NCBI RefSeq assembly: GCF_004341365.1
Contig: NZ_SLXH01000028.1
Coordinates: forward strand, 1 to 61,965
Direction: 5' to 3'
Length of the DNA: 61,965 nt
Source of the DNA: Simplicispira metamorpha
Lineage (GTDB): Bacteria; Pseudomonadota; Gammaproteobacteria; Burkholderiales; Burkholderiaceae_C
Made by a program: the position numbers and the translations under genes. The notes beneath the pieces are model-generated. The model had not been told where the DNA came from. It did not search any database and saw only the letters and a program-made list of their open reading frames with translations. This document shows, piece by piece, positions 22,534 through 46,407 of the stretch; position 1 is the first letter of the stretch, and every line of letters begins with the position of its first letter.

Positions 22534-24165
22534 ATGGCAGGAATCGGCAATCCCGACACGTGGTCCCTCGGTCAACAAGATACGGTCATTGCGGCGCTCG
22601 AACGCGCGGTAGCCAAACATTCCGACCGGGTGTTGCTCGACTTCTCGGGTGAACTCCATACCTACGGCGAAGTGGATCGCCAGTCGACCCGTTTGGCCCA
22701 TGCGTTCGCGGCGCTGGGCGTGCAACCCGGCCAGACGGTCGTGACGATGCTCGACAACAACATCGATGCCGTGCTGTGCTGGTTCGCCATCAATAAGCTC
22801 TGCGCCGTCAGCGTACCCATCAATACCGCGCTCAAGGGTGAATTCCTGCGCCACCAGATTGCCGATGCCGGCGCGGCGCTCGTGGTCTGCGAGGCCGCGT
22901 ATGCCGAACGCATCGCGGCGGTTTCGGACGGGTTGCCGGACGTGCAGCAGGTCCTGACCCGGGGCACGCCCGGCGACAGGCAGTGCGGCACCCTGCCCCT
23001 GGCCTCGCTCGACGAACACCGCGGCAGCGATGACAGCGCGTTCGAGCGCAAACCCCAGCCCTGGGAACTGGCCTGCCTCATCTACACCTCGGGCACGACC
23101 GGACCGTCCAAGGGCTGCATGATCAGCTACAACTACATGTGCAATCTGGCGCGTCTGCAACTGCGCGCTGGGCCGGCCAACGAAAACGACGTCACGATCA
23201 CGCCCCTGCCGCTGTTCCACATGAACGCCATGTGCGTGGGCGTGCTGGCATCGATTCTGGTCGGCGCCCGCGTCGCTTTCGTTCCGCGTTTTTCGGTGTC
23301 GAACTTCTGGCCCGAAGTGGAGCGCAGCGGTGCCACCATCGCCTCCATCTTGGGCAGCATGGGGGCGATGCTGGCCAACGCGCCGGATACCGAGGCCGGG
23401 CGGCGCTGCAAGGGGCAAATCCATACAGTGCGGGGCAATCCGTTCACGGAGGAAGTCAAATCCATCTGGCGCGAACGCTTCGGCGCGAAACAGGTGGGCG
23501 GCAACGGCTATGGCCTCACCGAAGCGGCAGTGATCACTTCGCTGGCCGGTGGCGAATATGCCGCCCCCGGTTCGTCTGGAAAGCGTATTCCCGATTTCGA
23601 CGTGCGCATCGTGGACGACCTCGACCGGGAAGTGCCGACCGGGACTTCTGGCGAAATCGTGGTGCGGCCGCTGCGCCCGGACATCATGTTCATGGGCTAC
23701 TGGCGCAGGCCGGAAGACACGCTGAAGATCATGCGCAACCTCTGGCTGCACACCGGGGATATTGGCAAGTTCGACGAGCAAGGCTTTTTCTATTTCGTTG
23801 ATCGCAAGAAAGACTACCTGCGCAGACGCGGCGAAAACATCTCCAGCTTCGAGATGGAAGCCGCCTTCGCCCGCCACCCGGCCCTGGCCGAAGTCGCCGT
23901 TCACGCCGTCTCGTCCGACAAGGGGGAAGACGACGTCAAGGTGACCGCCATGCTGCGCCCCGGCATGGCGCTGGCGCCCGAGGATCTTTTCAGGTGGGCC
24001 ATCGACGCCGTCCCCTACTACGCCCTGCCGCGTTACATCGAATTCCGCGACAGCCTTCCCAAGAACCCCCAGGGGCGGGTTCTGAAGTATGAACTGCGCG
24101 ACCAAGGTTGCACACCGGCCACCTGGGACCAGGAAACCAGCGGCATTCAGGTCACCAAGCGCTGA
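22534..24165 (+). CDS. Acyl-CoA ligase (AMP-dependent), copy 1
   Basis: ANL-superfamily enzyme of 543 aa: AMP motif YTSGTTGPSKGC (about 184-195), GYGLTEA adenylation motif, hinge region HTGDIGKFDEQGFFYFVDRKKDYLRR and the C-terminal catalytic Lys near NPQGRVLKYELR. ATG 22534 has GGAG at 8 nt; a TTG farther upstream is less likely. It is the same length as, and highly similar to, the ligase at 40651. It would activate a carboxylic acid substrate or intermediate to its CoA thioester. Confidence 0.93.
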   Translation: MAGIGNPDTWSLGQQDTVIAALERAVAKHSDRVLLDFSGELHTYGEVDRQSTRLAHAFAALGVQPGQTVVTMLDNNIDAVLCWFAINKLCAVSVPINTALKGEFLRHQIADAGAALVVCEAAYAERIAAVSDGLPDVQQVLTRGTPGDRQCGTLPLASLDEHRGSDDSAFERKPQPWELACLIYTSGTTGPSKGCMISYNYMCNLARLQLRAGPANENDVTITPLPLFHMNAMCVGVLASILVGARVAFVPRFSVSNFWPEVERSGATIASILGSMGAMLANAPDTEAGRRCKGQIHTVRGNPFTEEVKSIWRERFGAKQVGGNGYGLTEAAVITSLAGGEYAAPGSSGKRIPDFDVRIVDDLDREVPTGTSGEIVVRPLRPDIMFMGYWRRPEDTLKIMRNLWLHTGDIGKFDEQGFFYFVDRKKDYLRRRGENISSFEMEAAFARHPALAEVAVHAVSSDKGEDDVKVTAMLRPGMALAPEDLFRWAIDAVPYYALPRYIEFRDSLPKNPQGRVLKYELRDQGCTPATWDQETSGIQVTKR

Positions 24166-24182
24166 AGCCAGTCTCCGGTGCA

Positions 24183-24983
24183 TCAGTATTCGCGCACCGG
24201 CACATGGGCCGGGCGCGAGTTGTAGCCTGGCAAATGCAGCCCGCCATCCACGTGCATGGTGATTCCGGTCACGAACCGCGCCATCTCCGAGCCCAGAAAG
24301 ACGGCCACAGGCCCAATATCCAGTTCCGGATCACCCGAGCGACCCATGGGCCGGGCGGCGGCCGAGCGCTCGGCGAAACCGGGGATTTCGGCGGCCAGCT
24401 TATGGAATGTCGCCCCCATGGCGGTCGGTGCAATGGCGTTGCAAGTGATGTTGAACCGGCCCCATTCGGCCGCCGCGCTGCGCGTCAGTCCGATGACACC
24501 GGATTTGCCCGTGTTGTAGTCGGCATGCTGCCAGGCTCCGATGTCCACGTCGATCGACGTGAAATTGATGATGCGCCCACCACCACGCGCACGCATGTGC
24601 GGCAAGGCAGCGCGCATGGCCCACCAGGACGCCCAGACGGTAGATGTCAGCGTACGCTCCAGCATCGCATCCGTCTTGTCCTCCAGCAACACGTTCTCAG
24701 ATGGGACGAAGGCATTGTTGATGAGAATGTCGAGCCCGCCAAAGCTATCCACCGCGGCCTGAATGGCGGCTTCCACGCTGTCCTTGCGGAGCACGTTGGT
24801 AGGCACGAACAGGGCGCGCGCGCCCATCTGCTGGAGTTCGGCCTCGGCCTCGGCGCCGGTCACGGGATCGAGCTCGGCAATCAGTACCGCAGCGCCTTCT
24901 CGCGCATAGCAGCGTGCAATGCCGCGTCCGATACCACCGCCCGCTCCGGTGATCAGCGCCACCTTGTCTTTTAGCAAGCCCAT
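24183..24983 (-). CDS. SDR-family oxidoreductase
   Basis: Classical SDR of 266 aa: TGAGGGIG (12-19), NNA (89-91), Tyr156 and Lys160 (YNTGK), all intact. The C-terminal tail of about 20 residues after the substrate loop is unusual and Pro/Arg-rich. It converges with CoA ligase 1 (17-bp gap) and diverges from the DUF2889 gene across a gap with an AGAATTCT palindrome. It could reduce or oxidise a CoA-activated intermediate. Confidence 0.9.
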   Translation of the reverse strand: MGLLKDKVALITGAGGGIGRGIARCYAREGAAVLIAELDPVTGAEAEAELQQMGARALFVPTNVLRKDSVEAAIQAAVDSFGGLDILINNAFVPSENVLLEDKTDAMLERTLTSTVWASWWAMRAALPHMRARGGGRIINFTSIDVDIGAWQHADYNTGKSGVIGLTRSAAAEWGRFNITCNAIAPTAMGATFHKLAAEIPGFAERSAAARPMGRSGDPELDIGPVAVFLGSEMARFVTGITMHVDGGLHLPGYNSRPAHVPVREY

Positions 24984-25003
24984 TGAATCTCCTTATATTA
25001 GAC

Positions 25004-25011
25004 AGAATTCT
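25004..25011. promoter_or_regulatory. AGAATTCT palindrome, putative operator
   Basis: Perfect 8-bp palindrome in the divergent gap between an SDR and the DUF2889 gene, matching the palindrome at 22474-22481 beside the TetR gene. Short, so chance occurrence is possible. Confidence 0.35.
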
Positions 25012-25105
25012 TTTTATCGTACACTTTAAGACACTTCGTGTCAGCCGGAAAAATCAGGCTTCGCGCGTTGCCAGCCGACGGCAGAGGCCCCGAAAGAAAG
25101 TTCCC

Positions 25106-25846
25106 ATGCCTGTATTCCGACGCCGCATTCTGATCGCAACCGATCCCGTGGAAGCCGGCTTTCGCTGCCGGGCCGCGCTGGAGGATGACTTCCATCATTT
25201 CCGGGTCGAACTCGTCGTCCGGGATGGGCTCATCGCCTTCGTGCGTGGCGAAGCTCCTCGCCACCCTTACAGCCTGTGTCCTTCGGCGGCTGGCCAACTC
25301 CAACAGCTGGTCGGCACTCCCCCTGCGACAAGCGCCCACGGCGTGATGCGCCAAGTCGATCCCAGCGAGCAATGCACCCACATGCTGGAACTCAGCGGCC
25401 TGGCCGCGGCCGCCGCGTCCCGGGCCCTGCCGCGACGCCGTTATGACATCGAGGTGCCACTGAGAATCGAAGGACGCACATACGCGACCCTCGATCGCGA
25501 CGGCATCCGGCTGCTGGCCTGGGATATCCAGGACCTGGACATCGTAGGGCCTCCCCCTTACGAAGGCATCGGGTTGCGCCAGGGCATGGCGCGCTGGGCG
25601 TTTGCCCACCTGACCGAAGACATGGCCGAAGCAGCACTGGTATTGCGGCGATGTGCCGTGATTTCCATGGGGAAGAATCGTCCCCTCGATGCACAGCGCC
25701 ATGCCAGAACGACCGGGGCCTGCTATGCGCAGCAGCCTGGAAGAGCCCCTCTGGCTTTGCGCCAAGTGGGCTCGACCTGGAATTTCACGTGGCAGCCCGG
25801 CCAGCTATGCCGCGATGACCAGGAATGGCTCGCGTTCAAGGCTTGA
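25106..25846 (+). CDS. DUF2889-family protein
   Basis: Protein of 246 aa without signal peptide. It matches my recall of DUF2889: a beta-rich N-terminal part, RHPYSLCPSA, then the conserved CTHMLELSGLAA segment, and a late second Cys. No enzymatic function is established. The family often occurs in oxygenase and acyl-CoA gene clusters. ATG 25106 has a GAAAGAAAG site. It stands alone between an SDR and Rieske pair 1, converging with the latter. Confidence 0.72.
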   Translation: MPVFRRRILIATDPVEAGFRCRAALEDDFHHFRVELVVRDGLIAFVRGEAPRHPYSLCPSAAGQLQQLVGTPPATSAHGVMRQVDPSEQCTHMLELSGLAAAAASRALPRRRYDIEVPLRIEGRTYATLDRDGIRLLAWDIQDLDIVGPPPYEGIGLRQGMARWAFAHLTEDMAEAALVLRRCAVISMGKNRPLDAQRHARTTGACYAQQPGRAPLALRQVGSTWNFTWQPGQLCRDDQEWLAFKA

Positions 25847-25860
25847 AGGCAAGCGCGAGG

Positions 25861-26397
25861 TCAAAGGAAGATGGCCAGATTCGGCGTACCCAGCACGGCC
25901 TGGTCCAGCAGGATCTCGCGCTTGGCCAGCTTGAACCCCTCGCCATCAGCCCGCAGGATGTCCCTGCGTTCCGCGCTGATCAGGTCGTATTCATCGAAGT
26001 TGAACCGGCTGCGCGTCACTAGCAGATAGCTGCGCACACTGTATTCCTGGGGCTTGTCCGTCTCTTCGACCAGAACGTTGGTCACGAGTCGGCGCGTGCG
26101 CGATGGTGGATCTTCCGCCCAGGCGCTCTTGGTGCCGGTAAGGCGCACGATGCGCCCCATCACGGAGCGCCAATCGTCGTGGTAGTGCTGCATGGTGCGC
26201 ACCACCGATGCCGCCTGCTGGTTGACCGGCCGTGTTTCCCTCAAGGGAGCGGAGTAGATCAGGTCTTGCGCGAGCAGGGCGCCCCATTCCTTGAGGCGGA
26301 TTTCGTCAAGCAGGCGCGCCTCGACGTACAGAAATTGAAGGATCTGGTTGTAAACCGGCGATCCGATAGGCACCAGGGCGCCTTGGGCTTCACTCAT
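25861..26397 (-). CDS. Aromatic-ring-hydroxylating dioxygenase beta subunit 1
   Basis: Protein of 178 aa with the NTF2-like fold of Rieske-oxygenase small subunits: FLYVEARLLDEIRLKEWGALLAQD, RTMQHYHDDW, EDPPSRTRRLVTNV and FDEYDLISAERRDILR. It lies 42 bp downstream of its alpha subunit. It is structural in the hexamer. About 32% shorter N-terminal region than none; it aligns along its whole length with the beta subunit at 31778. Confidence 0.95.
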   Translation of the reverse strand: MSEAQGALVPIGSPVYNQILQFLYVEARLLDEIRLKEWGALLAQDLIYSAPLRETRPVNQQAASVVRTMQHYHDDWRSVMGRIVRLTGTKSAWAEDPPSRTRRLVTNVLVEETDKPQEYSVRSYLLVTRSRFNFDEYDLISAERRDILRADGEGFKLAKREILLDQAVLGTPNLAIFL

Positions 26398-26439
26398 GGG
26401 AGTCTCCGAGATTGGATGGTATCGAGTTGCAAGGAAGGA

Positions 26440-27840
26440 TCAGACCGCGTCGCCCATGAGCTGGCGCCAGTACAACCACCAGTGCCACTGCGTGTCGTCC
26501 TTGGTGAAGCCTTCGTTGACGATGCCCGGGCCGGGCCAGCCTTTGGGCGCCCCGGTTTCATAGACAGCCTGGTACTTCAGGGTCATCTTCTTGCCCTGCG
26601 CGCCCTTGGCGGCCAGGGTCATGTGCGGCCAGGTGTCGGAGTCGTCCTGCTCCACCATGCCTGATGTGCCAAACAGCTGGATGGTCTGCCTGAGCATCTT
26701 GTCGCGCAACTCCTGCGGGGCGTCCTTTTCCGCAAAGATCCAGTTCACGAACTCCAGCTTGTCGGGCCCCTTCGGGACGTAGGCATGCATGGTCATCGAG
26801 CCGACCACCGAGCCATCGGCCTGTGGGATGTAGACGAAGCCAAACAGCACGTTCGGGAAGATGCCGCCGACCTGCGGCGGCATGCTGGTCTGCACATGCA
26901 GCTGTTCGGGCGTGAGGTTGCGCTTGAGCTGCTCGACCATCTCCTTCGTCATGCCGGCTGGCGGGAGCGCATTGAGCTTTTCGTCCACGCTCAGCACGTC
27001 GGGATCGAGCCCGGTCATGCGGCGAATCTTCCGCCCCAGGTCGATGCATCGCAACGCGTGCCCGTGCGGCGAACTGACTTCCACCCCGTACATCTCTGGG
27101 CTCAGGTCGCCACCGCTGCCCTCCCCTTCGCCCTTCTTGGAATAGTTGCCGACCTCGCCAAGCCAGCGGTGCAGGGTCAGCGTGTGGTAGCCGTCGGCGG
27201 CAGACTGCTCCCCTGCTGCCTTCCAGTTGGCACGCACCGTGAAGCGCTGCGGCGGCCCCAGCACTTCCATGCCTTTGTCGGTGCGCTTGAAAAGGATGTC
27301 GTAGTACCACTTGGCGTCGCCAAGGAATTCCTCGAACGAGGGGCCATCGATGTTCCAGGTTGCAAAGATCAGCCCGCCATACAAGGTGACCCGGGCCTTC
27401 TTCAACCCCAGTTCCTCCTTGCTCATCATCTTGCCGTGCATCGTCTCCTTCTCGACCGGCGCGCCGAGAAAGGCTCCGTTCGGACGGAAAGCCCAGCCAT
27501 GGTAGATGCAGGTGTGGATCTGCGTGTTGCCCGCATCCAGGGTCGAAACCCGCATGCCCCGGTGCGTGCACAGGTTGAGAAGCACGTGAACCTCGCCCGA
27601 CTTATCGCGCGTGACCAGCACCGAGTCGGAACCCATGTCGCGAGTGACGAAGTCCCCCGAGTTGGGAATCTCGGACTCATGGCCGAGGAAAACCCAGATC
27701 TTGCCGAAGATCCGCTCCATCTCCAGCTCGTAGAGCTCGGGGTCCGAGAGCGCGCGCATCTGCACCTCCCGTGTGTTCACATTGACCAGATCAACGACCT
27801 TGGTTCCATCGGAAAGCGTGGGGGGGGTGGGGCTTAGCAT
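26440..27840 (-). CDS. Rieske dioxygenase alpha subunit 1
   Basis: Catalytic subunit of 466 aa. The Rieske [2Fe-2S] ligands are C91, H93, C111 and H114 (CTHRGM ... CIYHGWAF). The mononuclear iron site has H219 and H224 in DGYHTLTLHRW with bridging Asp216, and the third ligand is probably in EQDDSDTW. ATG 27840 has AAGGAG upstream and fits the start of the paralog. The protein has the same length as the alpha subunit at 32385 and well over half the residues match by eye. Substrate is likely a bulky aromatic, perhaps as acid or CoA thioester. Confidence 0.96.
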   Translation of the reverse strand: MLSPTPPTLSDGTKVVDLVNVNTREVQMRALSDPELYELEMERIFGKIWVFLGHESEIPNSGDFVTRDMGSDSVLVTRDKSGEVHVLLNLCTHRGMRVSTLDAGNTQIHTCIYHGWAFRPNGAFLGAPVEKETMHGKMMSKEELGLKKARVTLYGGLIFATWNIDGPSFEEFLGDAKWYYDILFKRTDKGMEVLGPPQRFTVRANWKAAGEQSAADGYHTLTLHRWLGEVGNYSKKGEGEGSGGDLSPEMYGVEVSSPHGHALRCIDLGRKIRRMTGLDPDVLSVDEKLNALPPAGMTKEMVEQLKRNLTPEQLHVQTSMPPQVGGIFPNVLFGFVYIPQADGSVVGSMTMHAYVPKGPDKLEFVNWIFAEKDAPQELRDKMLRQTIQLFGTSGMVEQDDSDTWPHMTLAAKGAQGKKMTLKYQAVYETGAPKGWPGPGIVNEGFTKDDTQWHWWLYWRQLMGDAV

Positions 27841-28024
27841 GCGCGTCTCCTTCATCTGTTTGGGCAGCTGTGGGGACGAAATATAAACAACCTAGCAAAG
27901 TCTGTACATATAAAGCCCGTTCCAGTGGCCCAAATGCGGCCAAAAACCAGGGTTAACACTAGGTTCGCGCATACCCTCCCAGCCTGGCATCCGCGCCATC
28001 CTTCTGGTTCGTGCCGAATTCCGA

Positions 28025-28954
28025 TCAGGCCTTGAGAGAAGCGGTGATCTTGGCATGTGGCCCCGCCACCTGGCTTGCCCAGGCGTCCGGCATCTGGTCG
28101 AAGCGATACCCGACATGGTCAAAGGTGATGCGATGCTCGTGCGCCATCCGCAGGAGCCGGCGCCAGGTGGCCTCGCGATCGCTGGCCGAGCGCTGCCCCG
28201 TACCCACGCAACTGAGCGTGCGGAACAGCAGGTCGGCGATATCGAGCTTCACTTCGCGCCCGCCCCCCGTGCCGACGGTGAGGATGCGCGCGCCCCAGCG
28301 CGTGGCCTTCAGCGCCGCGAGCATGGGCGCACCGCATACGCCGTCGAGAACCACGTCGAACCCCTCGCCCGCCACGGCCTTCAGGGCCACGGCATCGTCG
28401 GTGCCGCCCAGGGCCACCACCGCGTCGGCCAGGCCCCGCGCGCGCAAGCGCTCCAGGGCGGCCGCATCGCGGGCCGCCCCCACCACACGGCCAGCGCCCA
28501 GAATGCGCGCGAGCTGCAGGGCGAGCTGCCCGAGCGTTCCCGTGGCCCCCAAGATCAGCACGGTTTCGCCAGGCTGGATGCGGGCCTGTTCCAGCGGCAG
28601 CAGTGCGCCGGTGCCCGCGATGCCCATGGTGATGGCCAGCGCATCGTCGACATCGTCGGGAACGTCCCACACCTCTTCGGTAGGTACCAAGGTGCGTTCG
28701 GCCCAGGCCCCGAAGGGCGCCACCGAGCGCTCGCCGAAATAGACCCGGCGCCCGTCCGGGGCGTGGCCTACCCCCTCGCCCCGAATCACGCACGGGAATT
28801 GCACGCCCAGGCGGTAGGCCCCCAGAACATCCCAGCCTCCCAGCCCCGCGGTATCGACCTTGATCAAGGTCGCGCCCTCGCGGGCCTGTGGTTCGGGAAA
28901 GTCCTGCAGAACCGGCGGCAGTCCGCGCTCGGCAATCACGGCCGCCCGCATCAT
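28025..28954 (-). CDS. MDR-superfamily (quinone oxidoreductase-like) reductase
   Basis: Protein of 309 aa with the GroES-like N-terminal part and Rossmann motif LGATGTLGQLA (about 148-158). Zinc-binding Cys/His of alcohol dehydrogenases are absent, so it is a QOR/crotonyl-CoA-reductase-type NADPH enzyme. Start at MM 28954/28951 is inferred from the family N-terminus. It is between the amidohydrolase and Rieske pair 1. Likely reduces an enone or quinone. Confidence 0.88.
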   Translation of the reverse strand: MMRAAVIAERGLPPVLQDFPEPQAREGATLIKVDTAGLGGWDVLGAYRLGVQFPCVIRGEGVGHAPDGRRVYFGERSVAPFGAWAERTLVPTEEVWDVPDDVDDALAITMGIAGTGALLPLEQARIQPGETVLILGATGTLGQLALQLARILGAGRVVGAARDAAALERLRARGLADAVVALGGTDDAVALKAVAGEGFDVVLDGVCGAPMLAALKATRWGARILTVGTGGGREVKLDIADLLFRTLSCVGTGQRSASDREATWRRLLRMAHEHRITFDHVGYRFDQMPDAWASQVAGPHAKITASLKA

Positions 28955-28999: not shown

Positions 29000-30310
29000 C
29001 TACAGCGCGGTCTCTGCGTCCGCATCAGCGAACATCTTGTTGATGTCGCCCGAGGTCACCGGCTTGCCCGTCTGCCGCACCGGCTTGGCCCCCCCCATGC
29101 CCAGCATCGGTTCGACACTCACGTGCTTGGCCTGCGCCCGCAGCGCTCCCACGGTGCAGTTCTCGCGTCCCAGGATGGAGAACGGGTCGTAGGAGAACTC
29201 GCGCATGGCGTTGAGGTGGCCGATCTTGTCGATCTGCGCGTCTGTCAGGTGCCGGGTCTGCGCATGGAAGATCTCCGGCGAACCCGGCCAGGTGCAGTCG
29301 GAGTGCGGGTAGTCGCACTCCCAGGTCACCTTGTCTTCGCCGATGTCGGCCAGATTGCGCAAGCCGAACTCGTCTTCGATGAAGCAGGTGATGATGTGCT
29401 GCCTGAAGACGTCGCTGGGCTTGCCGCCGCCGAAGTCCGTCATGGTCCACTCGTGATGGTGCCGGTAGGTGAAGTCGGCACGCTCCAGCAGGTATGGAAT
29501 CCATCCGATGCTGCCCTCGGAGAGGGCCATGCGCAGATTGGGGTACTTCTTCCACATGGGGGCCCATATCCAGTCGGCGGCCGAGTTGGCGATCGAGATC
29601 GGCATCGAGGTGATCCAGGCATCGATCGGCGTGAGGTCCGAGGCATGCTCGGCCTTGACGCCGGTGCCGATGTGGCAGCAGATCACCACGTCATTGTCCG
29701 CGCAAGCCTTCCACACCGGATCCCAATGGTCGGAGTGGATCGAGGGGAACCCATGCAGCGCGGGGTTGTCCGAGAGGGAGATCGCGTGAACCCCCAGCTT
29801 GGCCATGCGGCGGATCTCCTGGGCAGCCAGTTCACCATCCCACCATGGAATCAGGCTCAGCGGAATGAACCGCCCCGGCGCTGCATTGCACCAGTCGTGC
29901 AGGTGCCAGTCGTTGTAGGCCTGGATGGCGGCGAACGAAACCTCCCGCGCATCCCTGTACTGCTGGAAGCGCTGCCCCGCGAAACCGGGAAAGGTCGGGA
30001 AGCAGATGGAGCCCAGCACACCATTGGCGTTCATATCGTCCACCCGGGCCTTGATGTCCCACGTCCCGCGGCGCATGTGCTCGTAGCCCAAAGGCTCCAT
30101 GCCGTATTCGTCCTTGGGGCGCCCCACCACGGAGTTCAGGCCCATGTAGCCTGTCGCGCGGTCTTCGAAGACCCAGACGTCACGGCCCCTGCTTTGAACC
30201 ACCTTGGGCTGGCGGCCCTTGAATTTGGCTGGCATGTGGCGATCAAAAGCCCCGCGCGGCTCGATCGCGTGGTCGTCAACGCTGACAAGAATGAGGTCGT
30301 CGAGTTTCAT
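29000..30310 (-). CDS. Amidohydrolase-family protein 2
   Basis: PF04909-type metal-dependent hydrolase of 436 aa. It begins with the SVDDHAIEP motif (D12-D13-H14), used by a subgroup instead of HxH, followed by the metal/active-site region ICCHIGTG and the late ECDYPHSDCTWPGS, where the catalytic Asp lies. It is longer than, and only distantly related to, the amidohydrolases at 19249 and 34835. Proteins of this subgroup are common in hydrophobic-compound clusters, but the reaction is undefined. Confidence 0.88.
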   Translation of the reverse strand: MKLDDLILVSVDDHAIEPRGAFDRHMPAKFKGRQPKVVQSRGRDVWVFEDRATGYMGLNSVVGRPKDEYGMEPLGYEHMRRGTWDIKARVDDMNANGVLGSICFPTFPGFAGQRFQQYRDAREVSFAAIQAYNDWHLHDWCNAAPGRFIPLSLIPWWDGELAAQEIRRMAKLGVHAISLSDNPALHGFPSIHSDHWDPVWKACADNDVVICCHIGTGVKAEHASDLTPIDAWITSMPISIANSAADWIWAPMWKKYPNLRMALSEGSIGWIPYLLERADFTYRHHHEWTMTDFGGGKPSDVFRQHIITCFIEDEFGLRNLADIGEDKVTWECDYPHSDCTWPGSPEIFHAQTRHLTDAQIDKIGHLNAMREFSYDPFSILGRENCTVGALRAQAKHVSVEPMLGMGGAKPVRQTGKPVTSGDINKMFADADAETAL

Positions 30311-31777: not shown

Positions 31778-32347
31778 TCACAGAAAAATGCCGAGGTTGG
31801 GCGTGCCGAGCACGGATTGGTCAATCAGGACCTCGCGCCGCGCCAGTTGCAAGGCGCCGCCCTCCTTGCGCAACACGTCATGGCGGTCGCAGGGGATCAG
31901 GTCAAAATAGTCAAAATCGAATCGGTTCCGGGTGAGAAGCATGTAGCTCTGCACCTTGAATTCATTCGGCTTGTCGGTCTTGTAGACGCGCACGTTGCTG
32001 ACCATCCGGCGCGTGCGCGAGGGAGGGTCTTCGCACCAGGCGCTGCGGGTTTCCGTGATACGGCGCACGCGCAGCATCAACGAGGCATAGTTGTCGTGCA
32101 TGTGCTGAACGGTTCGAATGGTCGTGCCGTCCTGCATGCGCACAGGGCGTGTCAAGCGCTGCGGGACGTTGTATTCGATGTCCTGCGCCAGCAGCGCGCG
32201 CCATTCGTCAAAGCGCAGTTCATCGAGCATCTCCGCCTCGTCAATGAGGAATTCGACGCATTCGTTGTAAAGGGGACTGCCGACAGGCATGCGGTTGCCG
32301 CGCACGGTGGATGGCAGAGGTGTGGGTTCGAGCAGGTTGGCAAGCAT
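31778..32347 (-). CDS. Aromatic-ring-hydroxylating dioxygenase beta subunit 2
   Basis: Small subunit of 189 aa, paralog of the one at 25861; segments EDPPSRTRRMVSNV and FDLIPCDRHDVLRK are conserved, and both end in TPNLxIFL. ATG 32347 has CAGGAGA at good spacing; the frame opens upstream but that start has no site. It pairs with the alpha subunit 37 bp upstream. Confidence 0.95.
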   Translation of the reverse strand: MLANLLEPTPLPSTVRGNRMPVGSPLYNECVEFLIDEAEMLDELRFDEWRALLAQDIEYNVPQRLTRPVRMQDGTTIRTVQHMHDNYASLMLRVRRITETRSAWCEDPPSRTRRMVSNVRVYKTDKPNEFKVQSYMLLTRNRFDFDYFDLIPCDRHDVLRKEGGALQLARREVLIDQSVLGTPNLGIFL

Positions 32348-32384
32348 GGTGATCTCCTGGTGGTGAAGGGTTGGCATCGGCGGC

Positions 32385-33785
32385 TCAAGACTCGCGAGTC
32401 ATCAGCTCGTGCCAGTACTGCCAGAAGCTCCAGTTGGTGTCGTCCTTGGTGAAGCCGCTGCCAACATGACCGGGACCCGGCCAGCCGTCAGGCTTGCCGG
32501 TCTCATACTTGGCTTGGTATTTGAGCGTGATGTTCTTGCTCATCGCCCCTTTGGAGACGATGGTCTGGTGCGGCCAGGTGTCCGAGTCGTCCTGCTCCAC
32601 CATGCCGGAAGTGCCCAGGAACTGGCAGGAAATGCGCAGCATCGCGGCCTTCTGCTCGGGCGGCGTATCCTTTTCTGCCAGGATCCAGTTCATGAACATG
32701 AACTTATCCGGCCCCATGGGCACATAGGTGTGCAGGGCCATCGCGCCCGTCACCTTGCCATCGGCCGTCGGCAGGTAGATGAACTCGAACAGTCCGTTGG
32801 GAAAGAAGTTGCCCACTTGCGGCGGGTTGGAGCTCATGATCTCGATCTGCTCAGGCGAGAGGCGGCTCACCACATCGGGGATCATCTCGGCCGTCAAGCC
32901 CGGGGGGGGCAGGACAGTGAGCTTTTCCTGGGCCGAAAGCTCGGCTGGATCCCTGCCTGTGATCCGGTGAACCTTACGGCCCAGATCGATACAACGCATG
33001 GTGTGGCCATGGTCAGTCCAGACTTCAACGCCATACATTTCCGGTGTCAGGTCCGCCCCACCTCCTTCGGCATTGGGCTTCTTCGCATAGGGGCCGATCT
33101 CACCCAGCCAGCGGTGCAGGGTCAGCGTGTGATAGCCATCGCATGCCCCCTGCTCGGCAGCTGTCTTCCAATTGGCCTTGATGATGAAGCGCTGCGGTGG
33201 CCCCAAAACCTCCATGCCACTGGTGGTACGGCACCACATGGTGTCGTAGTAGAACTTTGCGTCTCCCAGGAACTCGTCGAAGGAAGGGCCGTCGAGGTTC
33301 CAGGTGGCGAAAATCATGCCGCCGTAGACCGCCACGCGGGCCTTGGTGAGCGAGAGTTGCTCTTTGCTCATCATCTTCCCGTGCATGCACTCCTTGTCGA
33401 CGGGGGCGCCGATGAAGTCCCCATTGGGCTTGAATGCCCAGCCGTGGTAGATGCACATGTGGGCCTGGGTGTTGCCCACGTCCAGCGTGGAGACCTTCAT
33501 GCCCCGGTGGGTGCAGACGTTGAGCACCACGTGCACCTGGCCCTCGCGGTCACGCGTGACGAGGACCGAATCCGAACCCATATCCCGCTGGACGAAATCT
33601 CCCGAGTTGGGTATTTCCGTTTCATGGGCCAGGAAGACCCAGGTCTTGGCGAAGATCTTTTCCATCTCGAGCTGGTACAGCTCGGCATCGGACAAGACCC
33701 GCATCTTCACTTCACGGGTGTCCAGATTGATGAGGTCCGAGATCCTGGTTCCGTCGGACAACACCGGATTGCTACGCGTCAACAT
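32385..33785 (-). CDS. Rieske dioxygenase alpha subunit 2
   Basis: Catalytic subunit of 466 aa, with C91/H93/C111/H114 as Rieske ligands, H219/H224 as iron ligands (CDGYHTLTLHRW) and VEQDDSDTWPH near the third ligand. Same length and residue numbering as alpha subunit 1. ATG 33785 has AAGGAGA upstream. Its promoter region contains the element shared with P450-1. The first gene of an operon that also carries beta 2 and P450-3. Confidence 0.96.
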   Translation of the reverse strand: MLTRSNPVLSDGTRISDLINLDTREVKMRVLSDAELYQLEMEKIFAKTWVFLAHETEIPNSGDFVQRDMGSDSVLVTRDREGQVHVVLNVCTHRGMKVSTLDVGNTQAHMCIYHGWAFKPNGDFIGAPVDKECMHGKMMSKEQLSLTKARVAVYGGMIFATWNLDGPSFDEFLGDAKFYYDTMWCRTTSGMEVLGPPQRFIIKANWKTAAEQGACDGYHTLTLHRWLGEIGPYAKKPNAEGGGADLTPEMYGVEVWTDHGHTMRCIDLGRKVHRITGRDPAELSAQEKLTVLPPPGLTAEMIPDVVSRLSPEQIEIMSSNPPQVGNFFPNGLFEFIYLPTADGKVTGAMALHTYVPMGPDKFMFMNWILAEKDTPPEQKAAMLRISCQFLGTSGMVEQDDSDTWPHQTIVSKGAMSKNITLKYQAKYETGKPDGWPGPGHVGSGFTKDDTNWSFWQYWHELMTRES

Positions 33786-33828
33786 TTCATCGTCTCCTTG
33801 GGACCGGCACGATTGCCGGCATGGAGAC

Positions 33829-33859
33829 AATTTAGGACATTTTTTCTATTTGTGTTCAA
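33829..33859 (-). promoter_or_regulatory. Putative promoter of Rieske pair 2, shared element
   Basis: Minus strand: TTGAAC (33859-33854), then CAAATAGAAAAAATGTCC and CTAAA/TAAATT as possible -10, giving spacing of 17 to 19 nt. The block 33831-33854 nearly repeats 3966-3990 before P450-1. Transcription would start some 40 nt before the ATG. Co-regulation of P450-1 with this operon is inferred. Confidence 0.55.
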
Positions 33860-34838: not shown

Positions 34839-35854
34839 GCCGCGACGGAGGTATCGAGCTTCAGCAGGCGGCGCGCATTCCCGCTGCGGATCTTGGCCAC
34901 GTCGGCGTCGGAAAGGCCCAGTCCGGCGGTCAGGTCGCCATTGTCGTAGGCCCCCCCGAAGTTGGTGCCGTAGAGGATCTGATCGGCACCCACCACCTCC
35001 ACCACGGCGCGGCGCAGCGCCGGATGGTGCACGTCCAGGTCGAACCAGAAGTTGGACAGGTAGTCCATGAACGGGCGCTTGTTGCGTGCGTCGGGCGCCA
35101 TCGACTTGTTCAGCTCGGCCAGGCGCCCGAGCTGGAACACAGCCATGCCACCGGCGTGGTTGATGTAGGTTTTCAGCGTGGGGAACACGTCCAGCGCGCC
35201 GCCGCAGATCAGGTACCAGAAGAATAGGGTTTCATCGACGCAATCGCCCACGATCGAGGTGGTCTCGAAACGGTCTTCCGCATGCTTGTCGCCCCACCAT
35301 ACGGACTGGTTGTAACCATGCACCATCAGTGGCACATCCAGCCGCGTGACAGCCTCCCAAACGGGGAACAATTCCTCGCTATAGGCCTGCAGGCCCTTGA
35401 AATTGGCGCCCCCCACGCAGACCCCCTTGGCCCCGAGTTGCGTGACGGCGCGCTCGATCTCGCGTGCAGCCGCGACCGGATCGGCCAGGTTGGCGTGTGC
35501 CCAGAAAGCAAAGTGCGCCGGGTCCTGGGCGCAGTAGGCGGACATCTCGTCGTTGCAGATGCGCGCGTATTCGCTTCCGAAGTCGTCCGCCCAGTACATG
35601 AATGCATGCGAGGGCGTGGACACCACTATCTGGTCCACGCCGCGCTGGGCCATCAGTTCGCGGCGCGCGGCATGCGTCATCTTTGCCAGCAGGTTCGCCT
35701 CCGCCTGCTGGTCCGAGGCGGCCTTCGATTTTTGCTTGGTTCCCAGCGCGAAGTGCCCGACGGTGAACCCCTGCATCTTCATGAAAGGCCCCCAGAAATC
35801 GTGGCGGTTGAGCATTCCAGGAGTCAGCAGGTGTGCGTGGGCGTCGATCAGCAT
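34835..35854 (-). CDS. Amidohydrolase-family protein (ACMSD-like) 3
   Basis: Protein of 339 aa, clear paralog of the one at 19249: both begin with MLID-HAH (H6, H8) and NxHxFWGPF, share SHxxMYWAD, GGANFxGL, MVHGYNQSV-like and LYG(T/S)NFGG. ATG 35854 lies downstream of a strong-looking promoter. Coupled to the EamA gene. A decarboxylase or hydrolase acting on a related intermediate is likely. Confidence 0.88.
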   Translation of the reverse strand: MLIDAHAHLLTPGMLNRHDFWGPFMKMQGFTVGHFALGTKQKSKAASDQQAEANLLAKMTHAARRELMAQRGVDQIVVSTPSHAFMYWADDFGSEYARICNDEMSAYCAQDPAHFAFWAHANLADPVAAAREIERAVTQLGAKGVCVGGANFKGLQAYSEELFPVWEAVTRLDVPLMVHGYNQSVWWGDKHAEDRFETTSIVGDCVDETLFFWYLICGGALDVFPTLKTYINHAGGMAVFQLGRLAELNKSMAPDARNKRPFMDYLSNFWFDLDVHHPALRRAVVEVVGADQILYGTNFGGAYDNGDLTAGLGLSDADVAKIRSGNARRLLKLDTSVAA

Positions 35855-37237: not shown

Positions 37238-38221
37238 ATGATTTGCTGGACCCGGCGTCGGATGCTTGGCCTCGCGGCCAGTGCACTCCCGACATGGGCA
37301 GCTCCTGGCTACGCCCAAACCACCTGGCCCACCAAGCCAGTCTCGATCACGGTGGCATACGCCGGTGGCGGTGCCATCGACGGGCTGATTCGCTACTGCA
37401 CCGAGCAGATCCAAAAGCGCCATCCCGAGATCGTGTTCGTCATCGAGTACAAGCCTGGCGCAGGCGGCAACATTGCGGCGGACGCTGTCGCCCGCATGAA
37501 AGGCGATGGGCACCAGTTCCTGATGACAGGATCCTCGACCCAGGCGGCCAACGTCAGCTTGTACAAAACCCTCCCATTCGATCCGGAAAAGGATTGCGCG
37601 CCGATCGCCTCCATGGCCACCGTGCCTTACATCCTGGTGGTCAACCCCGCGCGCGTGCCGGTCAGCACGTTCCAGGAGTTCGTCGCCTTCGTCAAATCCA
37701 GGCCGGGCCAGTTGAGCTACGCCAGTTCGGCGATCACCGGAAGGCTCGCTGGCGAGATTCTCAAGCAGCGCACGGGATTGCAGGCGACCTTCGTGCCGTA
37801 CAAGACCTTGGCCCAGGTGGTTTCCGACATCATCGGCGGCCATCTTGACTACGCCTTTGGCGACCCCCAGGGCTACCTGCCACATGTGCGCTCCGGCCGC
37901 CTGCGTGCAATTGCCGTGACGACGCGCGCGCGCATCGCAGCCGCCAGCGACATTCCTACCCTCGCGGAGTCGGGCGTCGCTGATTTCGACGTCTCCGCGT
38001 GGCTGGCTCTCTACGGGAAGGCCGGGATGCCAGCCTTCGCAATCCAACGCTTCAACCAGTTGATCAACGAGGTGCTGGAAGCGCCCGAGGGCCAGGCATT
38101 CCTTACCAGCATCGGGCTGCAGCCACTGCTTGGCAAGCCCGACCAGCTTGCCGCCCTGCAAAAGCGCGATACGCTGGCCTGGGCACAGGCCATCCGGGCG
38201 GCAGGCATCACGATCGAATAG
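37238..38221 (+). CDS. Bug-family tripartite tricarboxylate transporter binding protein 2
   Basis: Periplasmic binding protein of 327 aa: twin-arginine-like TRRRML signal ending at about residue 27 (GYAQ), then PTKPVSITVAYAGGGAIDG and YKPGAGGNIAAD. ATG 37238 has CGGAGA upstream. It is quite divergent from the first Bug protein. Followed after 3 bp by the CoA-ligase gene; likely captures an acidic substrate. Confidence 0.9.
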   Translation: MICWTRRRMLGLAASALPTWAAPGYAQTTWPTKPVSITVAYAGGGAIDGLIRYCTEQIQKRHPEIVFVIEYKPGAGGNIAADAVARMKGDGHQFLMTGSSTQAANVSLYKTLPFDPEKDCAPIASMATVPYILVVNPARVPVSTFQEFVAFVKSRPGQLSYASSAITGRLAGEILKQRTGLQATFVPYKTLAQVVSDIIGGHLDYAFGDPQGYLPHVRSGRLRAIAVTTRARIAAASDIPTLAESGVADFDVSAWLALYGKAGMPAFAIQRFNQLINEVLEAPEGQAFLTSIGLQPLLGKPDQLAALQKRDTLAWAQAIRAAGITIE

Positions 38222-42407: not shown

Positions 42408-43394
42408 TCAAGGCTGCGTGATGCGCGTACGCAGCAGGCCGATGCCCTCCACCTCCAGTTCCACGACGTCATCAGGCTTGAGGTAGCGCATATGCTCCAG
42501 GCCACAGCCATTGCCCACCGTTCCCGACCCGATGAACTCACCGGGATGCAGGGTTTCGGAGCGCGAGACATGCGCGATCACATCCTCGAACTTCCAATAC
42601 ATGTCGCGCGAATTGCCGCGCCCCCATTCCTCGCCATTGACACGGGCGACCATGTTCAGGTTGTAGGGATCGGGGAGCTCATCGGCAGTGACCAGGCAGG
42701 GCCCCATCACGTTGCTGGTATCGAAGTCCTTGCCCTTGGCCGGCCCCAGCATGCCGCCCATTTCCACGGACTGGGCATCACGCGCGCTGATGTCATTGAA
42801 GATCGTGTAGCCAAAGATGTACTCGCGCGCCTTCTCTTTGGGCACGTCCTTGGCCCGCGCGCCCAGATAGAAGCCGAACTCGAGTTCAAAATCGAGCGCC
42901 TTGCTGTAGCCGGGCCACACGACATCGTCGTCCACGCCGATGGTCGCAAAACGGTTGCATTTGTAATAGATGGGCTGGCGCAGGAAGGTCTCGATCGCGC
43001 GCTCGTCTGAGCGGGTGTTCATGGCCTTCAGTGTGGCTTCAGGGTCCGGCGTGCGCGCTGCGCGTGCCCGCCGCGCTGCCGCATAGCTCTGGCGCAGATG
43101 CAGCTCGAAGCAAGAGGCATCGCGCATTTGCGGTGGCGGTTGGATGGGCGCCAGGATTCTGACCGCGCTGCGCTCCCGGACGGCCGCACGGGGCGCGCGC
43201 GCGATCAGGTCGCGCGCAAGCTCGGAGGCCGAGGGCCCCGCTTCGATCAGCGCGAGGATGCTCGCCAGCGCGTCCGCGCTGCCGCCATGGACGGTCTGCG
43301 CCGCCTGCCGCAAGTCAAGCACCGCCTGGTCACCCTCGATGAATGCGCCTGCGCGGGCGGCTTCGCCTGCGGCCTGAAATGTCACCAGTCTCAT
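42408..43394 (-). CDS. FAH-family protein 2
   Basis: Protein of 328 aa with an N-terminal extra domain and the FAH core; metal-binding acidic residues in KALDFELEFGFYLG and the YTIFNDISARDAQ motif. The insert between these motifs resembles FAH proteins annotated as 2-keto-4-pentenoate hydratase/2-oxohepta-3-ene-1,7-dioate hydratase. Divergent from FAH 1, probably other substrate. Confidence 0.9.
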   Translation of the reverse strand: MRLVTFQAAGEAARAGAFIEGDQAVLDLRQAAQTVHGGSADALASILALIEAGPSASELARDLIARAPRAAVRERSAVRILAPIQPPPQMRDASCFELHLRQSYAAARRARAARTPDPEATLKAMNTRSDERAIETFLRQPIYYKCNRFATIGVDDDVVWPGYSKALDFELEFGFYLGARAKDVPKEKAREYIFGYTIFNDISARDAQSVEMGGMLGPAKGKDFDTSNVMGPCLVTADELPDPYNLNMVARVNGEEWGRGNSRDMYWKFEDVIAHVSRSETLHPGEFIGSGTVGNGCGLEHMRYLKPDDVVELEVEGIGLLRTRITQP

Positions 43395-43460
43395 ATTGAA
43401 CGTTTCTCTTGTGGGAGGATTGAAAACCAGGGGCGAAGCGCCTCTGGCGGGAACGAAGAC

Positions 43461-43982: not shown

Positions 43983-43984
43983 GA

Positions 43985-44680
43985 TCACACCCGACCGGCC
44001 ACTGGAATGCACGCGCCTGTGATGGCGCTGGCATCATTCGACAGCAGAAACGCGATGACGGCGGCCAGCGAGCGCGGGGACACCCAGCGCGCGGTGTCGG
44101 CATCGGGCATATCGGCCCTGTTGGCAGGTGTATCCAGAATGCTGGGGCACACAGCGTTCACACGCACGCCACGATCCTTGACCTCCTCGGCAAGCGCTTC
44201 GGTCAGCCGCGCGACGCCAGCCTTAGACGCCGCATAAGCCCCCATTCCCATACCGGCCTTCTGTGCAGCCAGCGCTCCCACGTTGACGATGCCTGAGCCA
44301 TCGGCCGCCAACAGCCGTGGCAGAGCCTCCCGGCACGCCACCACGGTACTGCGCAGATTCATCGCATAGAGCGCATCCCACGACTCCAGGGTTCCGCTCT
44401 CCAGCGTTTCCCATCGGAAACCCCCGGCGGCGTTCACCAGGCCATCGAAGCCCTGGAGCCGCTCGCTTGCCTGCTGGAATGCGGGCCGTGTGGCATCCGG
44501 GTCGGTCAGGTCAATGCCACCGATCACCGCCGTGATCCCAGGCACATCCTGGGCCGCAACACGATCGAGCAGGACAACGCGGGCTCCCTGTTCGACCAGC
44601 ACGGCTCCCACGGCACGGCCCAGCACGCCCAGGCCGCCGGTCACAACGATATGGCGGTTCGCCAAAGAATGTTCACTCAT
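43985..44680 (-). CDS. SDR-family protein with Ser-to-Ala in the active site
   Basis: SDR of 231 aa: TGGLGVLG (14-21), NAAG (83-86), Tyr149-Lys153 (YAASK). The residue 13 before Tyr, usually the catalytic Ser, is Ala136 (NVGAL), which would weaken catalysis. Smaller than the other SDRs. The ATG at 44680 gives the normal start. Divergent from the DUF35/thiolase operon across a 138-bp gap. Confidence 0.88.
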   Translation of the reverse strand: MSEHSLANRHIVVTGGLGVLGRAVGAVLVEQGARVVLLDRVAAQDVPGITAVIGGIDLTDPDATRPAFQQASERLQGFDGLVNAAGGFRWETLESGTLESWDALYAMNLRSTVVACREALPRLLAADGSGIVNVGALAAQKAGMGMGAYAASKAGVARLTEALAEEVKDRGVRVNAVCPSILDTPANRADMPDADTARWVSPRSLAAVIAFLLSNDASAITGACIPVAGRV

Positions 44681-44718
44681 AGATGCAGATGGTTGGTAGA
44701 AACCATTAGTTAGACACA

Positions 44719-44746
44719 TTGACGCAATTTGTTCAGATATTAAACT
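44719..44746 (+). promoter_or_regulatory. Putative sigma70 promoter of the DUF35-thiolase operon
   Basis: TTGACG (44719-44724) and TAAACT (44741-44746) with a 16-nt spacer, the latter containing TTTGTTCAGAT, related to the recurring TTGTTCAA. Start would be about 65 nt before ATG 44819. Confidence 0.5.
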
Positions 44747-44818
44747 CTCTCAACCCGCCGACGTCAATTCGTAGCGGCCCTGACCCAACCCTATGCCAGC
44801 TCGACATACCCCGCGTTC

Positions 44819-45217
44819 ATGCCACGAAAACTGCCCCAGATCACCAGCGACTCATCGGCCTTTTGGCAGGGAGGGGAATCGGGCCGACTGATGATCCATC
44901 GCTGCGGCACCTGCCGACGATTCTTTCATCCACCCGCTCCGATCTGCCCATCCTGCGGTTCGCTGGATGTGGAGCCCCAGGCCACGAGCGGCCGCGGCCG
45001 CATCGCCACCTACACCATCAACCACCAGACGTGGAAGCCCGAGCTGGTCGCTCCCTACGTCGTGGCCATCGTCGAGCTCGACGATCAGCCCGGCCTGCGC
45101 CTGCTCAGCAACGTCGTGGAATTAGCGCCCGATCAGGTGCGAATCGGCATGCCGGTACATGTCACTTTCGAGCAACACGAAGACGTCTGGCTCCCTCTGT
45201 TCAAGAAAGCCGAATGA
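44819..45217 (+). CDS. DUF35 OB-fold/zinc-ribbon protein
   Basis: Protein of 132 aa: zinc-ribbon cysteines C29, C32, C43 and C46, followed by an OB-fold (RGRIATYTINHQTW, APYVVAIVELDD). In steroid and ibuprofen pathways such proteins form a complex with an SCP-x-like thiolase that cleaves a side-chain C-C bond in a retro-aldol manner. Its stop overlaps the next gene's start (ATGA), which fits complex formation. Confidence 0.92.
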   Translation: MPRKLPQITSDSSAFWQGGESGRLMIHRCGTCRRFFHPPAPICPSCGSLDVEPQATSGRGRIATYTINHQTWKPELVAPYVVAIVELDDQPGLRLLSNVVELAPDQVRIGMPVHVTFEQHEDVWLPLFKKAE

Positions 45218-46407
45218 TGTTCGACCATCTGTACGAAAAAAACGTGGCGATCGCCGGCGTAGGCCAATCCGAAGTGGCCCGCCCATCCGACAAGTCCGCC
45301 ATGCGCCTGACCCTGGACGCATGCCTGGAGGCCATTGCCGATGCGGGGCTCACGCGAAAGGACATCGATGGCGTGGCTTGCTGGCCAGGCGACAACAACA
45401 ATGGCAACAGCTTTTCCCCGGTGGGCCCCAATGCGCTGATCGGCACGATGGGGCTTCACGTCAACTGGTATGGCGGCGGCTACGAAGGGCCGGGGCCACT
45501 GGCCGGCGTGATCAACGGCGCGATGGCCATCGCCGCGGGCCTGTGCCGCCATGTGCTGGTGTTCCGCACGATCACCGAAGCGAGCGCGCGGCGGCTCGAC
45601 AAGAATGCCAACGCCTTGAGCAACAAGACCGCCGGGCGCGACAGCAGCTTCTTCTGGCAGTGGTACACCCCTTATGAAGTGCACTCGGCCATCAACCTGA
45701 TGGCCATGTACGCGCAGCGGCACTTCCACGAATACGGGACCACCCCCGAGCAGTTGGCGCAAATCGCCCTGACCTGCCGTGCTAACGCCGTGCTCAACCC
45801 AAAGGCTGTGTACCGCACGCCCATGACCATGGACGACTACTTGGCCTCCCGCATGATCTCGACGCCCCTGCGCATGTTCGATTGCGACGTGCACTGCGAC
45901 GGGGCGACGGCCATCGTGCTCTCGCGCATGGATGCGGCGCGCCATGGACCGAATCCCCCCATCCGCCTAGAGGCCATCGGTTCGGCCCTGCACCAGCCCT
46001 GGTCCTGGGATCAGGTTTCCCTGACCGGCGGGGCCAGTATCGACGCGGCACGCATGATGTGGCAGCGAACCGATCTCAAGCCAGCTGATGTCCGCAGTGC
46101 CCAGTTGTACGACGGCTTTTCCATCCTGACCCTGCTCTGGCTGGAGGCCTTGGGCCTGTGCCCAGTGGGCGAAAGCGGCCGCTTCGTCGAAGGCGGCACG
46201 CGGATCGCCCGCGACGGCGCCCTGCCGGTGAATACCAATGGCGGCCAGCTCTCGGGAGGAAGAACCCACGGCCTTGGGTATGTGCACGAGGCTTGCACCC
46301 AACTCTGGGAGCGCGCCGGACAGCGCCAGATCGCGCCGCACCAGGTAGCGGTCGCGGCGGCCGGCGGAGGCCCGCTGGCCGGCTCGCTTCTGCTCGTGCG
46401 CGAGTGA
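45214..46407 (+). CDS. SCP-x/Ltp2-type thiolase (lipid-transfer protein, aldolase)
   Basis: Thiolase-fold protein of 397 aa that lacks the usual N-terminal cysteine context and has the late YDGFS, NTNGGQLSGGRTHGLG segments of non-decarboxylating SCP-x/Ltp2 proteins. MM at 45214/45217 is coupled to DUF35. The catalytic Cys/His pattern differs from FadA-type enzyme at 16310. Likely retro-aldol cleavage of a hydroxyacyl-CoA; related proteins are IpfD and DitF. Distinguishing aldolase from thiolase needs structural comparison. Confidence 0.88.
   Translation: MMFDHLYEKNVAIAGVGQSEVARPSDKSAMRLTLDACLEAIADAGLTRKDIDGVACWPGDNNNGNSFSPVGPNALIGTMGLHVNWYGGGYEGPGPLAGVINGAMAIAAGLCRHVLVFRTITEASARRLDKNANALSNKTAGRDSSFFWQWYTPYEVHSAINLMAMYAQRHFHEYGTTPEQLAQIALTCRANAVLNPKAVYRTPMTMDDYLASRMISTPLRMFDCDVHCDGATAIVLSRMDAARHGPNPPIRLEAIGSALHQPWSWDQVSLTGGASIDAARMMWQRTDLKPADVRSAQLYDGFSILTLLWLEALGLCPVGESGRFVEGGTRIARDGALPVNTNGGQLSGGRTHGLGYVHEACTQLWERAGQRQIAPHQVAVAAAGGGPLAGSLLLVRE

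Follow-up and report, generated by a model that had tools for sequence, protein, structure and literature searches.

The stretch analysed here, 61,965 nucleotides of Simplicispira metamorpha DNA (the window; NZ_SLXH01000028.1, contig 28 of a 3.78-Mb genome assembled in 68 contigs), very probably carries, judging from its gene content, a dit cluster for the breakdown of abietane diterpenoid resin acids that has been enlarged by a second Rieske oxygenase (RHO) module. Resin acids are toxic compounds of pulp mills and conifers. Catabolic genes make up the greater part of the window (Pfam and NCBIfam scans), and the first-pass annotation of positions 22534-46407 had taken them for a possible new pathway, akin to ibuprofen (ipf) degradation and matching in full no pathway known to it. 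The core of the set, however, stands in close one-to-one orthology with the characterised dit cluster, which that annotation had itself named as speaking against novelty. What lies here is a known pathway in a new variant, of which the new parts are the inserted second RHO module and the specific role proposed for the DUF35-DitF pair; the observation was real and is partly confirmed, and its interpretation is partly supported.

An alignment scan of named genomes for the RHO alpha subunit gave near-identical copies in Acidovorax temperans and relatives. The first of the two alpha subunits (alpha1) is 64-67% identical to copies in Pseudomonas abietaniphila ATCC 700689 (which we take to be strain BKME-9), Paraburkholderia xenovorans LB400 and Pseudomonas vancouverensis Dha-51, and matches in these three strains indicate the diterpenoid dioxygenase DitA1. 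When 60 kb around the RHO alpha gene of ATCC 700689 and of LB400 (NC_007953.1) was compared gene by gene with the window, 30 of the 55 called genes were reciprocal best hits in one or the other dit region, 29 of these with at least 50% identity (50-85%), which, on sequence, is a gene set shared far beyond chance. The orthologues of DitJ, DitI, DitH, DitG, DUF35 and DitF are all reciprocal best hits (about 59-78%); together with ditA1 and ditA2 they lie inside the annotated span, with ditK to ditQ outside it, and in LB400 the same core (the ditA1 to ditQ genes of Table 1) is 61-85% identical. The second alpha subunit (alpha2, with beta2) is DitA1 itself, below called type I, while alpha1 with beta1 is called type II.

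The annotated span contains two RHO alpha/beta pairs, three CoA ligases, a DUF35 gene with an SCP-x gene, one cytochrome P450, two amidohydrolases and one FAH-family gene; elsewhere in the window lie two further P450s, one amidohydrolase and one FAH-family gene. The two alpha/beta pairs, and the coupling of DUF35 (Pfam zf-ChsH2 and OB_ChsH2_C) to the SCP-x gene, which it overlaps by 4 bp, had been described correctly, as had two ligases of equal length (each 543 amino acids from ATG), although this pair is not the full count. The three P450s, the multiple amidohydrolases and the FAH proteins that had been listed for the span do occur in the window, where only one of the P450s, two of the three amidohydrolases and one of the two FAH proteins fall inside the span. 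The dit pathway had been named as a comparator, and the logic of the classes (i.e. a CoA ligase, an RHO and a DUF35-SCPx aldolase acting on a bulky acid) holds. NCBIfam gave no name above cut-off for the ligases (25 best of 83-90 matches each), the RHOs, the P450s or SCPx among the matches listed, and none for DUF35.

Table 1. Features of the window. Two-figure identities are to the P. abietaniphila and P. xenovorans LB400 dit regions, in that order; RBH, reciprocal best hit; flank counts refer to loci of type I or type II RHO alpha genes.
Feature	Positions	Strand	Evidence
Cytochrome P450, DitQ orthologue (Q inferred from order)	2655-3926	-	75% to P. abietaniphila and LB400 P450s, RBH
Second dit-region cytochrome P450	6644-7933	+	71% to second P450 of P. 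abietaniphila region; 68% P. resinovorans
Carboxymuconolactone-decarboxylase-like, ditP by order	15780-16313	-	Pfam; 60% / 66% RBH
Thiolase, ditO by order	16310-17485	-	71% / 80% RBH; 71% to Massilia plasmid gene annotated thiolase family
3-Hydroxyacyl-CoA dehydrogenase, ditN by order	17482-18387	-	Pfam; 73% / 76% RBH
FAH-family hydrolase/isomerase, ditM by order	18407-19252	-	Pfam; 67% / 75% RBH
Amidohydrolase, ditL by order	19249-20337	-	Pfam; 79% / 85% RBH
TetR regulator, ditK by order	21611-22390	-	Pfam; 55% / 61% RBH
Acyl-CoA ligase DitJ, 543 aa	22534-24165	+	77% / 77% RBH; 25% to IpfF
Short-chain dehydrogenase DitI	24183-24983	-	71% / 70% RBH
DUF2889 protein, kept in dit clusters	25106-25846	+	Pfam; 50% / 55% RBH
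RHO beta subunit DitA2 (beta2)	25861-26397	-	68% / 72%
RHO alpha subunit DitA1 (alpha2)	26440-27855	-	81% / 77%; in supported DitA1 clade
Zinc-binding dehydrogenase, linked with type II RHO	28025-28954	-	Pfam; flank of 20/34 type II vs 2/44 type I loci
Amidohydrolase paralogue of type II module	29000-30310	-	Flank of 21/34 type II vs 0/44 type I loci
Third cytochrome P450	30464-31744	-	Pfam; flank of 5/34 type II loci
Type II RHO beta (beta1)	31778-32377	-	55% to P. abietaniphila DitA2; 69% to P. resinovorans second beta
Type II RHO alpha (alpha1)	32385-33830	-	67% to own DitA1; 76% to P. resinovorans second alpha
Amidohydrolase in insertion	34835-35854	-	75% to P. resinovorans and Caulobacter FWC26 genes
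Third CoA ligase, FadD4-like, not DitJ-like, 545 aa	38225-39862	+	22-27% to DitJ-type ligases of dit regions
DitJ paralogue, 543 aa	40651-42282	-	62-64% to DitJ; 71% to Caulobacter FWC26 plasmid ligase
FAH-family DitH	42408-43394	-	71% / 75% RBH
Short-chain dehydrogenase DitG	43985-44665	-	63% / 68% RBH
DUF35 (ChsH2-like) partner of DitF	44819-45217	+	Pfam; 62% / 60% RBH; best solved relative 6ok1 chain B
SCP-x thiolase-fold DitF, proposed retro-aldolase	45214-46407	+	78% / 78% RBH; best solved relative 6ok1 chain A (Ltp2); YDGF motif
MFS transporter of dit cluster	46456-47757	+	50% / 55% RBH
Ferredoxin reductase	47769-49007	+	Pfam; 64% / 69% RBH
SDR, enoyl-CoA hydratase, 321-aa glyoxalase/VOC-like protein	51814-54484	-	Flank of 16, 16 and 12 of 29 type-II-alpha-only loci vs 2, 1 and 1 of 44 type I
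MMPL, YCF48-like, DUF1329, DUF1302 cassette	54512-61299	-	Pfam; orthologues in P. resinovorans and four type-II-only clusters

A CoA ligase, an RHO, DUF35 and SCPx also occur together in the ipf cluster of Rhizorhabdus wittichii MPO218 (plasmid pIBU218), and the ibuprofen upper pathway has been described as ending with a retro-aldolase (PMC9195938; this and the other papers cited here by PMC number are represented by excerpts). It could thus be asked whether the island is a new ipf-like pathway for another aryl-alkanoic acid, with a ligase, ring dioxygenation beside the side chain and side-chain removal by DUF35-SCPx. This is very improbable, since the ipf enzymes are only distant relatives of those in the window (25-41% identity, against 60-81% to the Dit proteins). 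The best pIBU218 matches to the ligase, the RHO subunits, DUF35 and SCPx are at 25-30% (alpha 26-27% to IpfA, DUF35 27% to its best relative there), apart from IpfD at 41% over 223 residues, so that one-to-one orthology with IpfA, IpfB, IpfD, IpfE and IpfF was not found; in the RHO alpha tree, moreover, IpfA is set apart by a very long branch from all 77 other rows. A steroid or bile-acid cluster is yet more improbable: DUF35 and DitF do have steroid aldolase structures as their best match, and the weak matches of the ligases include models for steroid and bile-acid ligases, but among the matches listed these models score far below cut-off (CasI 162 of 900 bits, CasG 236 of 750, BaiB 259 of 650), and the orthology is to dit genes. 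Both readings were rejected on these points.

Part of the dit cluster lies on another contig of the same genome, C35, where positions 2547-14957 hold a ferredoxin, acyl-CoA dehydrogenases, an enoyl-CoA hydratase, an amidohydrolase, an IclR regulator and DitC, i.e. the rest of the cluster. The orthologues of ditC (73%), the ditA3 ferredoxin (42%), ditR (the IclR regulator, 59%) and an acyl-CoA dehydrogenase (82%) are found there, and the four-gene acyl-CoA dehydrogenase group is not in the window. The window matches contig 5 of A. temperans DSM 7270 at 98.7% over 60.9 kb (positions 39905-100825) and C35 matches positions 100821-122108 of that contig; as the two matches adjoin, the window and C35 very likely belong together in a single cluster of some 80 kb. 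Compared with P. abietaniphila BKME-9, ditA1, A2, F, G, H, I and J and, by order, K to Q are thus in the window, with ditA3, C and R on C35.

Several points weigh against the identification as a dit cluster. The letters K to Q were given by gene order and with the product lists in PMC12628601 and PMC13063091; the kinds of gene agree with the dit products in these excerpts except for ditL, which PMC12628601 calls an AB hydrolase and which is, by order, an amidohydrolase in the window. Unlike in P. abietaniphila, no orthologue of ditB or ditD was found in the window or C35, which were searched out of the whole genome (best matches 32-33% and 42%, to other genes), and for ditE the same search gave nothing closer than the MFS gene at 10925, a reciprocal best hit at 36%. 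An alpha subunit of the DitA type (E values up to 1e-150) occurs in 5 of 299 sampled genomes of the window's family, the window's own included, and none was found in three other genomes of the genus, so that the substrate cannot be argued from lineage. Related clusters are found on a Massilia plasmid typed as mobilizable and on a Caulobacter plasmid typed as conjugative, which fits horizontal spread.

For BKME-9, the reactions of DitQ and DitA have been shown, and ditC, ditF, ditH and ditI are required, whereas a proven reaction is missing for most dit genes (PMC13063091). In the window and C35, a P450 and a dehydrogenase would lead to the 7-oxo acid, after which DitA (alpha2/beta2, with ferredoxin and reductase) would dihydroxylate ring C and DitC would cleave it; the type II RHO would presumably act at this ring-C step as well. 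DitJ would form the CoA thioester, on which DUF35-DitF may act as a retro-aldolase (a beta-hydroxyacyl-CoA being the substrate), DitN, DitO and relatives would carry out steps resembling beta-oxidation, and the FAH-family proteins would cleave or isomerise the fragments.

The second RHO lies in a 14.55-kb insertion that separates ditA1 from ditH, which neither P. abietaniphila nor LB400 has; in the latter, 92 bp lie between the ditA1 and ditH matches and no type II RHO was found (E values up to 1e-120). Besides alpha1/beta1 and the P450 at 30464, the insertion contains further enzymes (two amidohydrolases, a zinc dehydrogenase, an aldo/keto reductase, an SDR, the FadD4-like ligase and the DitJ paralogue) as well as a TctC-type receptor and an EamA transporter. 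Two genes for TctC-type periplasmic receptors are present in the window (1658-2644 and 37262-38221); of the genes called beside them, to which the search was confined, none is TctA or TctB. The ditA1-ditH gap was measured between matches at 40 loci that have DitA1 (at least 72%) and DitH both on the fetched stretch, many of them near-identical Pseudomonas; it is 92-211 bp in 34, 457-1181 bp in three and 14.55-14.99 kb in three, namely A. temperans and an Aquabacterium metagenome-assembled genome (MAG), both with 14.55 kb as in the window, and a Hydrogenophaga MAG with 14.99 kb. With a genome in 68 contigs an assembly artefact might be considered, but the recurrence of the arrangement in these three, and the A. 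temperans match at 98.7% over 60.9 kb, leave practically no probability for it, and it was rejected. In Azohydromonas australica (L014) the type II genes directly adjoin ditA1, too, but the stretch fetched there gave no ditH.

Alpha1 and alpha2 are 67% identical, and in the RHO alpha tree (90 rows, 79 after merging of identical ones, with L025 left out because of a stop in the extracted match and IpfA present twice under two names) a type I clade of 42 rows, with support 97/93, includes alpha2 and the LB400 and P. abietaniphila genes but not alpha1. The type II rows are the remainder outside this clade (where three plasmid forms and IpfA also fall) and themselves form no supported clade. At the positions we take to hold the Rieske and iron ligands, all 74 alpha sequences are invariant. 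The two types differ at eight positions, each at least 93% conserved within a group, which indicate no substrate.

To compare their distribution, 53 genomes or records were drawn from 82 loci of plasmids and named genomes (L005-L086), with many close relatives, and second copies within one genome, left out and the window's own genome excluded. Both types occur in 23 of the 53, type II without DitA1 in 12 and DitA1 without type II in 15, and three are plasmids with intermediate forms; four of the 53 are plasmid records without chromosomes and several are MAGs, so that the absence of a type is uncertain there. All 12 with only type II have ditJ (66-79%) and a DitQ-like P450 (best match 75-78% in 11 and 62% in one), and 11 have ditF (74-82%), the exception being a MAG. 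An earlier idea, that type-II-only Massilia lack ditJ and the DitQ-type P450 and are thus users of non-acid diterpenoids, had come from stretches of about 60 kb in which no ditJ was seen; it was dropped, as both genes are present in 12 of 12 whole genomes or records.

The neighbourhoods were counted within at most 10 kb on each side (some contigs being shorter), where 'type II only' means that no DitA1 lies on the fetched stretch. A beta1-type subunit is on the flank of 34 of 34 type II and of none of 44 type I loci, while ditJ, ditI and DUF2889 recur beside type I (42-43 of 44 loci). The absence of the amidohydrolase at 29000 near type I (Table 1) is partly due to a dit-type paralogue beside ditQ that lies more than 10 kb from ditA1, out of view; the dit orthologue closer than this gene is on C35.

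It is unlikely, at a level that still deserves weight, that the type II module is a separate pathway (for another terpenoid, a steroid or an aromatic acid) which came to lie in the dit cluster by chance. Such a pathway would account for the discrete insertion, its own amidohydrolase, dehydrogenase and linked distal genes, and the third P450 and extra ligase that accompany the type II RHO. Against it, the 12 of 53 that have type II without DitA1 keep ditJ, the DitQ-like P450 and, with one exception, ditF, as if DitA1 had been replaced (some of the 12 being MAGs and one a plasmid record, where a DitA1 may have been missed), and the alphas of both types share 67% identity and the same metal ligands. 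That the type II RHO is instead fully redundant with DitA (same substrate and product, a backup copy only) is rather doubtful: one type does replace the other across genomes, yet both are kept in 23 of 53, the eight alpha positions separate the groups, and their neighbourhoods differ. The simplest reading would be that type II takes the place of DitA where it stands alone and widens or backs up the step where both exist. Most likely the second RHO would share the ring-C step of DitA, where it would either take different resin acids or intermediates or be exchangeable with DitA.

Two known loci bear on this comparison. Pseudomonas resinovorans DSM 21078 also has two RHOs (DitA1 83%, type II alpha 76%), with P450s and the MMPL/DUF1302 cassette, but there some 16 kb separate ditA1 from the type II module, which is found past ditF instead of between ditA1 and ditH and is accompanied by a second DitC-like gene. 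Within the 80 kb covered, no gene matches the window's DitJ paralogue more closely than DitJ itself. The second DitC-like gene (24726-25640 of region L094-L097, 70% to DitC) is near the type II RHO, which suggests a paired ring-cleavage enzyme. The Massilia putida plasmid NZ_CP019037 shares the type II RHO, ditJ, ditF, a DitQ-like P450 and other dit genes, but a search of the plasmid alone, without the chromosome, gave no DitA-like oxygenase besides the type II RHO. It carries a second DitJ-like (55%; 59671-61275) and a second DitF-like gene (50%; 85140-86306).

The best solved relatives of DitF and its DUF35 partner are the two chains of one structure, 6ok1 (TcLtp2-ChsH2), with Ltp2 as chain A and ChsH2 (DUF35) as chain B, and the partner is coupled to the SCPx-fold subunit as in the DUF35-Ltp2/Sal aldolases (the 4-bp overlap, the ChsH2 domains and 6ok1 itself). 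The catalytic motifs are YDHF plus Tyr344 in TcLtp2 and YDCY in CtSal of CtSal-CtShy (PMC12329534). In DitF the catalytic-base Tyr is kept, Tyr299 in YDGF aligning with TcLtp2 Tyr294, and LYDGF and NTNGGQLSGGRTHGL are invariant in 38 of 38 DitF matches (at least 60% identity; not independent, several being near-identical Pseudomonas); the IpfD motif is YDAF. At the positions of the second catalytic residue (TcLtp2 Tyr344, CtSal Cys304) DitF has Arg and Gly, the Arg having been placed by hand count on the printed alignment. For want of this residue DitF is filed as neither Ltp2 nor Sal, though it may work like one of them. Such a distinct type speaks against carrying the aldolase mechanism over to DitF directly. 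The catalytic Cys pair of SCP2 thiolases was not found either, at the positions that we take to be those of the nucleophile and the second Cys: in DitF, the N-terminal block shown contains a single Cys, one residue before its end (LCR), and the C-terminal block contains none.

In BKME-9, 5-hydroxy-DHAA has been reported, with its enzyme unknown, and insertional ditF mutants lost growth on several resin acids (PMC13063091); 5-hydroxy-7-oxo-DHA was seen in strains with modified ditA1 (PMC6891630). We tentatively propose, at somewhat less than even confidence, that DUF35-DitF is a ring-A-opening retro-aldolase acting on 5-hydroxy-(7-oxo)-abietanoyl-CoA, with YDGF marking a third type of active site in addition to those of Ltp2 (YDHF) and Sal (YDCY). 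In 5-hydroxy-abietanoyl-CoA, for which a P450 of the cluster may be the C5 hydroxylase, the C18 thioester, the quaternary C4 and the tertiary C5 hydroxyl would make up a beta-hydroxyacyl-CoA. As the C5 hydroxyl is beta to the C18 carboxyl, cleavage of C4-C5 by DUF35-DitF after thioesterification by DitJ would open ring A and leave a ketone at C5, which with the 7-oxo group would form a 5,7-diketone suited to FAH-family DitH, DitM or DitD. Among the literature matches listed, to which the primary dit papers do not belong, none concerns an aldolase in resin-acid catabolism, and the excerpts state no specific role for DUF35-DitF.

Of the remaining genes, the MMPL-YCF48-DUF1329-DUF1302 cassette sets the window apart from P. 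abietaniphila, having no orthologues in the 60-kb P. abietaniphila and LB400 regions, and possibly serves envelope transport of hydrophobic substrates. The 321-residue protein at 53519-54484 has no Pfam match, its relatives are annotated as lactoylglutathione lyase or VOC, and it is 76% conserved in P. abietaniphila; it is a candidate second extradiol dioxygenase. A methyl-accepting chemotaxis protein (49104-50738) adjoins the cluster and is a possible resin-acid chemoreceptor; genes partly related to it (51-54%) occur near the clusters of LB400 and of the Massilia plasmid. At 20544-21575 a universal-stress-protein domain is fused to a hemerythrin domain, with a match only in A. temperans among the eight regions compared.

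For surveys that use ditA1 as a marker gene, it matters that a second DitA-like lineage stands alone in 12 of 53 genomes or records and beside DitA1 in 23, and the type I and type II RHOs offer a clean enzyme pair for comparing substrate range. The proposal, for its part, assigns DUF35-DitF a concrete step in the opening of rings A and B that can be tested; if true, it would explain the 5-hydroxy-DHAA of BKME-9 and the 5-hydroxy-7-oxo-DHA of strains with modified ditA1, and would account for the opening of the recalcitrant A/B rings.

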